The position numbers and the translations under genes were made by a program. The notes under the pieces are model-generated. The model was not told where the DNA came from, made no database searches, and was given only the letters and a program-made list of their open reading frames with translations. DNA of 64,000 nt from Wohlfahrtiimonas sp. G9077 (GTDB taxonomy: Bacteria > Pseudomonadota > Gammaproteobacteria > Cardiobacteriales > Wohlfahrtiimonadaceae): NCBI RefSeq assembly GCF_002252155.1, contig NZ_NEFD01000001.1, forward strand, positions 186,001 to 250,000, in the 5' to 3' direction. Within the stretch, counting starts at the first letter, position 1; every line of letters starts with the position of its first letter. Shown here in pieces: positions 47,936 through 51,491 of the stretch.

Positions 47936-49165
47936 ATGTCAGACGCAACTGTCAATACCAGCACAAAATTATTACCGGGCGAACTCGGTCTTAGCCTCAA
48001 ACTCGCAGGGCTTTTTTCCATTCGGATGTTGGGCATTTTCATCATCTTGCCTGTGCTGACTCTATACAGCCAAAGCTTAACGGGCTCGACCCCATTTTTA
48101 ACGGGCCTTGTGTTTGCAAGTTACGCATTGACGCAGATCTTACTGCAACCGATCTTTGGCGTTGTTTCCGATAAAATGGGCAGAAAACCAGCATTAATCG
48201 CTGGTCTTGGGTTATTTATTGTGGGCAGCATCATCTTAATGTTTGCCAGCCACGTTTATGTGGCCATTTTAGGGCGCATCATTCAAGGCGCCGGCGCAGT
48301 GTCGGCTGTTGTACTGGCTTTGGCCACGGATTTAACCCGTGAATACATTCGCTCAAAAGTCATGGCCATGATCGGTGTCAGCATTGGTTTAACGTTTGGT
48401 GTGGCGATCTCCCTTGCTCCCATCATCTATATGGTGGCCAAAGGCTATGGAATTTTTGGTGTGTGTGCGCTCATGGGTGCCCTTGGCATTTACGCCACCA
48501 TCAAATTCATTCCCGATGCACCGATGCCCACTGAAGCGATGAAAACAAAACGCGAAAGCTTATCTGAGCTCACCCGCATCGCTTTTAGTAATGGCAATGT
48601 GGTGCGTTTATACTTTGGCGCTTTCATGCTGCATCTCTTATTAACGATGACGTTCGCCGCCATGCCAAGCCTTCTTGGTAAATTGGAAATCTCTGGCGGT
48701 TCTGCCACGCTCTATTATGTGAGCACCTTTTTCATCTCATGCATCATCATGTTTGCTTGCGTAGGTTTAGCAGAGCGTTTTTATCGTCACCGTGTCTTAT
48801 TTCTATTTGCCATTTTATTTTTAGCATTGGCATATTTAGGCTTAATTGTTTCTGAAGATGGCAGCCATGCCCTCTTTTTCTGGGGATTATTGTTATTCTT
48901 CTTTGGATTTAACGTCATGGAAGCGATGCAGCCTTCCATCATGTCGCGTGCTGCCGATCAGAACTATCGCGGCACCATTATGGGCGTTTTTTCCTCCTCA
49001 CAATTTTTAGGCACCTCCATCGGCGGGATGCTTGGCGCTACAATCAGCGGTTATTTTGGCGTACAATATGTCTTTTACTTGGCATTTCTTTTAGCAGCTG
49101 TTTGGTTCGCCATCGCATGGCCCATGCAAAATCCTGTGAAACCTCAAAAGAAAGCAGACGCATAA
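47936..49165 (+). CDS. major facilitator superfamily transporter, YajR-like
   Basis: A 409-aa inner-membrane protein with twelve predicted helices. The MFS motif A is G-V-V-S-D-K-M-G-R-K-P-A (near residue 76), followed by I-I-Q-G-A-G-A-V-S near 118. Overall pattern and the opening R-M-L-G-I-F-I-I-L-P-V-L resemble YajR, but the extra C-terminal soluble YAM domain of YajR is missing; the tail is only a short Lys-rich end. Likely a proton-driven exporter; substrate unknown. AAGGAG precedes the start; the stop overlaps the next start (TAATG). Confidence 0.85.
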   Translation: MSDATVNTSTKLLPGELGLSLKLAGLFSIRMLGIFIILPVLTLYSQSLTGSTPFLTGLVFASYALTQILLQPIFGVVSDKMGRKPALIAGLGLFIVGSIILMFASHVYVAILGRIIQGAGAVSAVVLALATDLTREYIRSKVMAMIGVSIGLTFGVAISLAPIIYMVAKGYGIFGVCALMGALGIYATIKFIPDAPMPTEAMKTKRESLSELTRIAFSNGNVVRLYFGAFMLHLLLTMTFAAMPSLLGKLEISGGSATLYYVSTFFISCIIMFACVGLAERFYRHRVLFLFAILFLALAYLGLIVSEDGSHALFFWGLLLFFFGFNVMEAMQPSIMSRAADQNYRGTIMGVFSSSQFLGTSIGGMLGATISGYFGVQYVFYLAFLLAAVWFAIAWPMQNPVKPQKKADA

Positions 49166-49905
49166 TGGAAGCAGAAACCTTAAAAATTAAAGTGGCACAA
49201 AAAATGATCGGGCTGATTGATATGCCCTATCTATTTTTAAACCTAGATGCAAACAAAGTGGCCGAAGAGGTCAAAAGCATCGGCGCCATCGCCTCAATCA
49301 CAACCTTTGCACAACACGTTGCACCCCTTCGTGAAGCATTTGGCGATGCTGTGCCAACCATTGCCACCATCATCAATTATCCCTATGGACCTTTTAATAC
49401 ATACAATGCCACCCAAGAGATGAAGCAAGCCTTGGATGCCGGCACCGATGAGATTGATTTGGTCTTTCCCTATCAAGCCTTGGTCAATCGCCAAGCGGGA
49501 TTATGTTTGAAATTTTTGAACACCATGCGGGAAACTGCAGGTGATACACCATTAAAGCTCACCATTGAAGCCGGCATCTTACAAGATGCCAAATGGATTC
49601 GAAAAGCCACAGAATTGGCTGTCAGAAGTGGCATGAATGTCGTCAAAACCGCTTCAGGTCGCAATCGTCAACAAATCACCCTCACCATGGTACAAATGAT
49701 GCTGACTGTGATTGAAGACATGAATCCTGAAACGGGCATTCACATCGTGACAACCAACAACAATTTTACCGAAGCTTCACAATACTTAGAAGAAGTCATC
49801 AGCCGCTTAGGCACATCATGGGTTGATGCTTCTCATTTCCGTTTGAGTGGTCCAAATTTAGTCAGCTCCATTTCAGAGCTACTGGCTCAAGACCATGCTA
49901 TTTAA
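49165..49905 (+). CDS. DeoC-family aldolase homolog with altered active site
   Basis: A 246-aa TIM-barrel protein clearly related to deoxyribose-phosphate aldolase. D-E-I-D-L-V-F-P-Y carries the conserved Asp98, and V-V-K-T-A-S-G carries the Schiff-base Lys161 (E. coli Lys167). The E. coli segment G-F-K-P-A-G-G, holding the second catalytic lysine (Lys201) and phosphate-binding glycines, is here I-V-T-T-N-N-N-F (194-201). The lysine and both glycines are gone. The Cys47 region also differs. The reading frame is intact, so this is a divergent protein, not a frameshift. It may act on another substrate or be inactive. ATG overlaps the MFS stop. Confidence 0.85.
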   Translation: MEAETLKIKVAQKMIGLIDMPYLFLNLDANKVAEEVKSIGAIASITTFAQHVAPLREAFGDAVPTIATIINYPYGPFNTYNATQEMKQALDAGTDEIDLVFPYQALVNRQAGLCLKFLNTMRETAGDTPLKLTIEAGILQDAKWIRKATELAVRSGMNVVKTASGRNRQQITLTMVQMMLTVIEDMNPETGIHIVTTNNNFTEASQYLEEVISRLGTSWVDASHFRLSGPNLVSSISELLAQDHAI

Positions 49906-49926: not shown

Positions 49927-50706
49927 ATGAATCCACAATTAACCATCGCACAAAAAAGTGTTTCTAAAGTTAGCCGTTTAATCAACCAAATTTTTGAACA
50001 AACCGCTAAATTAAGCCAAGCACAACGCGAAGAGACCGAACGTTTTGACATCTTTTACGCACAAATTGAAACCGAGATTGCCAAAGAAATTTTATATGCA
50101 TACCCAGACCACACGGTAGAAACAAAACTCACAGGTGTGCACGGCCCTGCCCACAATAAATCGTATTGGTATGTCAGCGGCATCGTTGGTAAACAAAACT
50201 TCTTAGGTGGCAATGCTGACTTTGCAGTTTCTGTAGCCTACATGGTCGATGACAAATTAATGGCCGGTTACGTTTATGCACCAATGTCACAAAAAACCTA
50301 CATGGCTGTGAAAAATGAAGGCGCGACTTTAAATGACATTCGCATCCGTTTACCTCGCCACAGCGGCCGCATCAGCGATGCCCTTTTACTCACAGATGCG
50401 CGTTCATTGCGTAAAGAAAATGTCATGATGACTGCGCATTTACATCATCTCTCTTTAGGTGTTAGAGTGTTAGGCGATGAAGCATTGAGCATCTGCGAGA
50501 TGATTGAAGGGAAAGCCTCAGCAGCTTGGTTAAATGCCTTTGATCCTTGTGATCATTTAGCGGCTGTCTTGATTGCACAAGAAGGCGGCGCTTTAGCCAC
50601 TGACTTTAATGGCAATGAAGTGGACATCAGCGCTGAAAATGCAGCTTTTGCCACACCTAAATTGTTAAAACCTTTATTACAATCCATCCATCAAGCCAAA
50701 CGTTAA
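49927..50706 (+). CDS. SuhB/inositol-monophosphatase homolog lacking metal ligands (pseudoenzyme candidate)
   Basis: A 259-aa protein aligning with E. coli SuhB along its length and opening M-N-P-Q-L-T-I-A, like SuhB M-H-P-M-L-N-I-A. The metal-binding signature W-V-I-D-P-L-D-G-T-T-N-F is replaced by WYVSGIVGKQNF (81-92), so both aspartates are lost (Ser84, Val87). The E-E-S-G element is K-L-T-G (66-70 region), and only the late Asp209 in D-P-C-D-H-L-A-A remains. With four of five ligands gone, catalysis is not expected. SuhB also acts, independently of catalysis, in rRNA antitermination with Nus factors, and such a role is possible here. The frame is intact. Confidence 0.85.
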   Translation: MNPQLTIAQKSVSKVSRLINQIFEQTAKLSQAQREETERFDIFYAQIETEIAKEILYAYPDHTVETKLTGVHGPAHNKSYWYVSGIVGKQNFLGGNADFAVSVAYMVDDKLMAGYVYAPMSQKTYMAVKNEGATLNDIRIRLPRHSGRISDALLLTDARSLRKENVMMTAHLHHLSLGVRVLGDEALSICEMIEGKASAAWLNAFDPCDHLAAVLIAQEGGALATDFNGNEVDISAENAAFATPKLLKPLLQSIHQAKR

Positions 50707-51491
50707 TGAAGATCCGGAAATCTCAATTACTTGCCCCATTACTCACCCTGTGCTTCATGCCAGAAGCACACAGTTTATCGTTGTTGATGCAAAAGTATCA
50801 CAATGTTGAGTTTGCAGTTGTTGAGGTTTCCGAACATGATTCATTACAGCTTTTTTGGAAAAATCCCGCCACCGAGCAGCCTTATCAATCTTTTTCAACG
50901 CTCAATAAAACGTTACAAAAAGAGAAAAAACAGCTTCTCTTTGCCATTAACTCTGGCATTTTTGGGCAAGATCAATCGCCGCTCGGCTGGCATATGGAAA
51001 AAGGCGAACTCTTAAAGGGCTTAAATCAGATCACACGCACCAATGCCATTGGGAATTTTTCATTGATTCCAAATGGCGTTTTTTTTGTCAACCAAGATGG
51101 TTCGCGCCATGTTCTAGAAACTGAGAATTTTCTTCGCAATCAAAAACGTTATGCGCCTTTATATGCCACGCAATCTGGCCCAATGCTTGTGGTCAATGGT
51201 CAGTTGCATCCAAAATTTTTTGCGTCCTCCGACAGCTTAAAATATCGCAGTGGCGTGTGTGTCAAAAATAACAATACTTACTTTGCAGTCACACAAAACC
51301 CCATCAATTTTTATTACTTTGCTAAATTTTTTCAAGAAGAATTGGGCTGTCAAAATGCTCTTTATCTCGATGGTACGTTGTCACAACTCTCTTATCTTGG
51401 GAAAATTTATGGCGCACCCTTTTGGAATGTGCGCCCATACGTTGGCATTTGGGCGGTTACGAGCCCGATGACAAAGGAAATGTCAAAGTAA
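50706..51491 (+). CDS. secreted phosphodiester glycosidase-domain (NAGPA/DUF2233) protein
   Basis: A 261-aa precursor with a signal peptide (basic start, hydrophobic residues 8-18, cleavage near A-H-S at 23). The mature protein has the NAGPA-family marks: F-A-I-N-S-G-I-F near residue 79, Q-S-G-P-M-L-V-V-N-G near 157 and N-A-L-Y-L-D-G-T-L-S near 227. Family members remove or process sugar phosphodiesters, and some act on cell-wall or teichoic-type polymers; the substrate here is unknown. ATG overlaps the SuhB-like stop, and the last 35 bases overlap the 3' end of cpxA on the other strand. Confidence 0.82.
   Translation: MKIRKSQLLAPLLTLCFMPEAHSLSLLMQKYHNVEFAVVEVSEHDSLQLFWKNPATEQPYQSFSTLNKTLQKEKKQLLFAINSGIFGQDQSPLGWHMEKGELLKGLNQITRTNAIGNFSLIPNGVFFVNQDGSRHVLETENFLRNQKRYAPLYATQSGPMLVVNGQLHPKFFASSDSLKYRSGVCVKNNNTYFAVTQNPINFYYFAKFFQEELGCQNALYLDGTLSQLSYLGKIYGAPFWNVRPYVGIWAVTSPMTKEMSK

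Follow-up and report, generated by a model that had tools for sequence, protein, structure and literature searches.

A SuhB ortholog of Wohlfahrtiimonas that lacks the metal site of inositol monophosphatases and is probably retained for rRNA transcription

The 64,000-nucleotide window analyzed (contig NZ_NEFD01000001.1 of Wohlfahrtiimonas sp. G9077) contains a suhB ortholog whose product has lost the catalytic magnesium site and hence almost certainly phosphatase activity, to judge from the residues replaced. This protein is most likely a pseudoenzyme that remains in use as one subunit of the Nus/antitermination complex for rRNA transcription. The only SuhB of the family would probably survive solely for its part in transcription and ribosome assembly, because it is conserved and its partners in rRNA transcription are still present. 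SuhB carries the name and annotation of an inositol monophosphatase (IMPase). Work on E. coli suggests that its rRNA role is the one that counts, the link between both being open; there, the growth defect caused by suhB loss is absent from IMPase-defective mutants (PMC4807359; PMC6614801). Natural SuhBs devoid of the metal site, under strong selection beside an intact Nus system, bear on that link from the side of evolution: should the Wohlfahrtiimonas protein prove active in rRNA antitermination, that role would require neither metal binding nor catalysis. They also call for caution with annotations, because degenerate suhB genes are likely labelled as inositol monophosphatases. While SuhB itself and pseudoenzymes in general are already known, no report of a SuhB or inositol monophosphatase pseudoenzyme was found in the literature searched, a coverage that leaves out most subscription journals.

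The source genome comprises 2.1 Mb in 14 contigs and is rated complete. Its SuhB protein shares 97% identity with the W. chitiniclastica DSM 18708 protein, 79% with that of W. larvae and 77% with that of W. populi. Wohlfahrtiimonas and its kin are fly-associated bacteria. The NCBI taxonomy places both Wohlfahrtiimonas and Ignatzschineria in the Ignatzschineriaceae (Cardiobacteriales), here called the family, and the sister genus g4 of this family is termed Ignatzschineria-like, a name assigned by inference. The features discussed are collected in Table 1.

Table 1. Features of the suhB locus in the window, and degenerate SuhBs of other gammaproteobacterial genera (residue changes in E. coli numbering).
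Feature	Sequence	Position	Strand	Evidence or context
deoC-like gene, 21 nt upstream of suhB, probable shared transcript, second lysine site lost	window	49165-49905	+	Pfam DeoC/LacD, 38 bits
Degenerate suhB (SuhB ortholog, catalytic metal site gone), 259 aa	window	49927-50706	+	Pfam Inositol_P, SuhB structure matches, tree
Residues 67-68, K-L, replacing metal-binding E67-E68	window	50125-50130	+	Alignment with E. coli SuhB and relatives
Residues 84-90, S-G-I-V-G-K-Q, replacing D-P-L-D-G-T-T; D84, D87 and T89 lost	window	50176-50196	+	Alignment
D209 (E. coli D212), sole side-chain metal ligand retained	window	50551-50553	+	Alignment
Residues 244-251, P-K-L-L-K-P-L-L; K248 and L251 equal E. coli K251 and L254 (NusA AR2 contacts)	window	50656-50679	+	Alignment; PMC6614801
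Phosphodiester glycosidase (NAGPA) domain gene	window	50706-51491	+	Pfam NAGPA, 67.4 bits; neighbour in nearly all family members
G158 degenerate SuhB: WVINPLDSYKNF, D212E	L162			iscS-iscR-trmJ / suhB / secF-secD-yajC-tgt-queA, ancestral locus
G054 degenerate SuhB: WVIQGIDPLANY, D212 lost	L163			Adjoins trmJ, ancestral locus
G037 degenerate SuhB: WYIFAFDGVKNY	L054	5128-5877	-	Adjoins secF, ancestral locus
G028/G030 (Cardiobacteriaceae) degenerate SuhB: WLISPMDSQINF, D212Q	L103/L105	4525-5697/4661-5833	-/+	
G021 (Cardiobacteriaceae) partly degenerate SuhB: WLITAIDGGENF, E67Q, D212 kept	L101			

The gene starts with ATG. Its frame is uninterrupted, as initially annotated. Its product belongs to the Inositol_P superfamily (PF00459), with a Pfam profile score of 104.4 bits against a curated cut-off of 27 over residues 5–255. 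A search of solved structures returned SuhB proteins as the top matches, aligned from residue 1 to 254/255; E. coli SuhB, a Nus factor and inositol-1-monophosphatase (PDB 6ib7, 6ib8, 6tqn, 6tqo, 2qfl), is alignable over nearly the full length. The earlier description as a full-length, SuhB-like protein agrees with these matches, the kept fold being what homology predicts; AlphaFold2 run on two shallow alignments (4 and 5 sequences) gave pLDDT values of 39.7 and 38.8, too low to inform on the fold, and three scans of viral contigs to deepen the alignment provided one usable relative. The protein scored 84.4 bits with the SuhB equivalog model NF008027, below the curated cut-off of 332, this being still its best NCBIfam model.

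Concerning the metal site, the reference was the SuhB sequence of E. coli MG1655, whose numbering is used. With respect to it, the Wohlfahrtiimonas protein shows the changes E67K, E68L, D84S, P85G, D87V and T89K, in addition to W211 to C and D44 to Y. The motifs of a catalytic inositol monophosphatase (EE, DPxDGT and WD, with ligands E67, D84, D87 and D212) are therefore absent, with K67, S84 and V87 in their place and only D212 retained. The alignment bears out the replacement of the DPLDGTT signature and the loss of the Glu-Glu element reported in the initial annotation. Its count of one remaining metal ligand out of five is correct for Wohlfahrtiimonas, where D212 is left, and does not extend to the Ignatzschineria-like genomes and another genus, in which D212 is lost too (the equivalent residue is T in the former, and Q in G006). 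The changes are far outside normal variation, because E67, E68, D84, D87 and D212 are all present in 38/38 canonical gammaproteobacterial SuhBs compared. In the family, E67, D84 and D87 are lost throughout and their substitutes differ between genera (K/N/D, S/gap and V/T/S, respectively), so the metal site looks free of constraint. As these three residues bind essential metals in IMPases, we infer that phosphatase activity is lost with them. For the M. tuberculosis enzyme, dimerisation on Mg2+ has been reported (PMC2080633). The Wohlfahrtiimonas protein could conceivably have remained catalytic by remodelling its active site or by acting on a different substrate, and the retention of D209 and of the loop parts G88 and N91 in Wohlfahrtiimonas would fit such an idea; the family-wide loss of the metal-holding E67, D84 and D87, together with that of D212 in the sister genus, makes it very improbable.

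The initial annotation had raised the question of a second, intact suhB. Profile searching of the source genome recovered two Inositol_P genes only, the degenerate suhB and a HisN-type phosphatase (L001/L116), and thus no intact suhB was found in this genome. The HisN-type paralog shares superfamily and genome with the degenerate SuhB and differs from it by its intact active site (GEE/DPIDGT) and by falling outside the SuhB clade in the trees; its best model was histidinol-phosphatase HisN TIGR02067 (226.6 bits, below the cut-off of 275). The degenerate copy occurs once in each of 18/18 Ignatzschineriaceae genomes, alongside an intact non-SuhB paralog (two of them in G006), and most other Cardiobacteriales genera have a canonical SuhB scoring about 211–254 bits. 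A tree obtained with IQ-TREE under a site-heterogeneous model, long outliers omitted, placed the degenerate clade within SuhB and grouped with Cardiobacteriales SuhB (SH-aLRT 96). FastTree also placed it inside SuhB with Cardiobacteriales proteins. The family SuhB sits on a long branch, and its nearest relatives are canonical Cardiobacteriales SuhBs (G018, G019, G020, G022–G027) which, unlike the degenerate clade, have the E-E, D-P-[LI]-D-G-T and W-D sites intact.

The degenerate suhB is under purifying selection and is not decaying. Pairwise dN/dS within Wohlfahrtiimonas and within g4 was 0.02–0.13 for this gene versus 0.02–0.07 for the intact paralog, these figures being rough since synonymous sites are often close to saturation. 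A gene on its way out could be suspected from an identity to E. coli SuhB far below that of canonical relatives. This is already contradicted by frames open in 18/18 genomes, by the dN/dS values, by the kept gene order and by the boxA found 5′ of the sister-genus gene (see below), which leave hardly any probability for decay.

E. coli SuhB contacts NusA AR2 through K251 and L254, with a Kd of 94 nM versus 141 µM for the KL251/254AA variant, which corresponds to a more than 1000-fold weaker binding (PMC6614801). In a comparison that concerns one interface from one structure, both residues were found retained in 18/18 degenerate family copies. The initial annotation had named two things that, combined, would speak against its reading, a lost NusA-binding surface and an intact suhB at another place; what was found is K251 and L254 of that surface kept and no intact suhB. 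Among representatives, K251, L254 and P247 are present in 13/13 degenerate sequences versus 21/38, 28/38 and 21/38 canonical SuhBs, respectively, and they are three of the 22 invariant positions among 251 in those 13 representatives. The stretch 247–254 is more conserved in the degenerate family than in canonical SuhB (Fisher p ~0.001 for near-invariance of the eight residues), K251 and L254 having been chosen from PMC6614801 and not from the alignment, and the bounds of the stretch being our choice. Fifty positions are shared by at least 90% of canonical SuhBs, and the family retains 14 of them but not the other 36 (at 90%): the retained ones include W81, N91, G132, R141, G186, E222 and G224, and the metal-site positions are gone. 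Two observations go against a role in the Nus complex. One is that R184, changes of which affect the E. coli SuhB dimer (PMC6614801), is replaced by V, I, C or M in family members, which mostly retain R183; the other is that K251, which is not universal in canonical SuhBs, is absent from most other degenerate lineages.

Regarding the partners of SuhB, NusA has AR1 and AR2 in 16/16 family sequences read (no NusA could be clearly matched in G006 and G012), with an AR2 35–46% identical to that of E. coli and the C-terminal DDLAEL...WF kept, and NusB is present in 5/5 family genomes tested. The rrn leaders were located by sequence patterns, as a 16S covariance-model search missed most genomes. Those of the source genome (L177, L180 and L184, at contig ends) carry a boxA GTTCTTTAACA and a boxC-like element TGTGTGGGAGCTTG, ordered as in E. 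coli rrnB. In these leaders and in those of G001, G012 and G015, boxA reads AGTTCTTTAACA or GAGTTCTTTAACA and the boxC-like element reads TGT(G/A)TGGG(A/G)GCTTG, with a spacing near that of E. coli rrnB. In addition, a stable hairpin lies 5′ of boxA in the Wohlfahrtiimonas leader (G001 sequence), like boxB in E. coli. If the E. coli mechanism applies, NusB/NusE would bind boxA as the rRNA leader emerges, and the suhB ortholog would probably serve, as a pseudoenzyme, in the Nus/antitermination complex.

A boxA is also found before suhB itself in part of the family. E. coli Nus factors repress suhB via a boxA in its 5′ UTR, an arrangement common among Gammaproteobacteria, and the sequence GTTCTTTAACAT at −28 of E. 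coli suhB is this known autoregulation element (PMC5725501). In 9/9 Ignatzschineria-like genomes, TCTTTAA[CA]A occurs at −23/−24 of the degenerate suhB, adjoining the ribosome-binding site. When the g4 upstream regions are aligned, conservation is confined to the boxA block, to the ribosome-binding site and to the bases preceding the start. The same motif was found within 60 nt of 0/63 other genes of the g4 loci, the expectation from the loci's own density being 0.004 per gene. In Wohlfahrtiimonas no boxA was found in the upstream regions of suhB, which there follows the deoC-like gene after 21 nt, and this is a third point against a Nus role. Taken together, the likeness to E. coli SuhB comprises K251/L254, the setting with NusA AR2, NusB and rrn leaders bearing boxA/boxC, and the 5′ UTR boxA that only the sister genus has; the differences of the Wohlfahrtiimonas protein are the erased metal site, the changed R184 and another gene neighbourhood. 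The proposal of the initial annotation, that only the antitermination role survives, thus appears supported by K251/L254, NusA AR1/AR2, NusB, boxA/boxC and the boxA of the sister-genus suhB.

The order of genes in nearly all family members is rsmI/MFS, degenerate suhB, the NAGPA gene and then a two-component pair, and in the window the start codon of the NAGPA gene shares one base with the suhB stop. G006 deviates from this order, on a short contig. The ancestral neighbourhood (trmJ, secF-secD) was not found in the Ignatzschineriaceae, where suhB is relocated, as in other Cardiobacteriales. A locus unlike the ancestral one, yet conserved across the family, a long branch and the 36 positions not retained could be read as signs that the protein has acquired a non-catalytic function unrelated to the old one, possibly in concert with the products of the neighbouring genes (the NAGPA-domain protein, the two-component system and the MFS transporter), the link to Nus being gone. 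This reading seems unlikely: the residues in contact with AR2 show higher conservation than they do in canonical SuhB, the sister genus has boxA control of suhB, no other SuhB is there to fill the Nus role despite the retention of boxA/boxC and NusA AR2, and canonical Cardiobacteriaceae suhB genes lie at varied loci too.

The deoC-like gene precedes suhB in Wohlfahrtiimonas and in g3 only. It is the sole deoC-type match in the source genome and scored 81 bits with TIGR00126, below the cut-off of 117.3. The Schiff-base lysine motif KT[AT]SG is retained, and the second-lysine loop GxKxSGG reads GIHIxTxNN in all Wohlfahrtiimonas, being intact in the g3 ortholog (L043, L045). It would seem that two adjacent genes, this one and suhB, have both lost active-site residues.

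Degenerate SuhBs were also found in five more gammaproteobacterial genera, D84 being lost and D87 kept in all of them (Table 1). Those of G158, G054 and G037 came from a survey of 140 gammaproteobacterial genomes, one per genus, ranked by score with inspection of the weak ones, a procedure that single-residue losses would escape; those of G028/G030 and G021 add to them from within the Cardiobacteriaceae. The first three are at the ancestral trmJ/suhB/secF site (secF, secD, yajC, tgt and queA were named from layout and sequence, not by profile search), so the catalytic site has seemingly been lost repeatedly. A FastTree grouping of all degenerate SuhBs, which would imply a single origin, was distrusted as long-branch attraction: the three distant ones, when placed singly, leave the Cardiobacteriales, and their synteny is ancestral. 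We read this as five losses or more, one each in the family, in G028/G030, in G158, in G054 and in G037, with G021 as a partial sixth. On balance we favour at least five independent losses of the SuhB phosphatase site in Gammaproteobacteria with the gene kept, in three cases at its ancestral place, so that the Nus role would be separable from enzyme activity across the class, beyond the case of E. coli mutants.

Some particular observations were made on these lineages. The G028/G030 SuhBs are extended at the C-terminus by about 120 aa rich in lysine, a tail that may bind RNA. The very diverged SuhB of G037, at the ancestral locus, coexists (L094, L079) with a NusB that scores weakly (57 bits), a NusA AR2 whose final WF is missing and an rrn leader in which no boxC is clear, so the whole antitermination system may be drifting or remodelled there. 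In G054, a single 767-aa frame (L163:2827-5127, - strand) matches trmJ plus iscS, which could be a fusion or a frame artefact. Finally, the semi-degenerate suhB of G021 (L101) is preceded by a boxA-like sequence, GTTCTTTGAAAA, 28 nt before its start.
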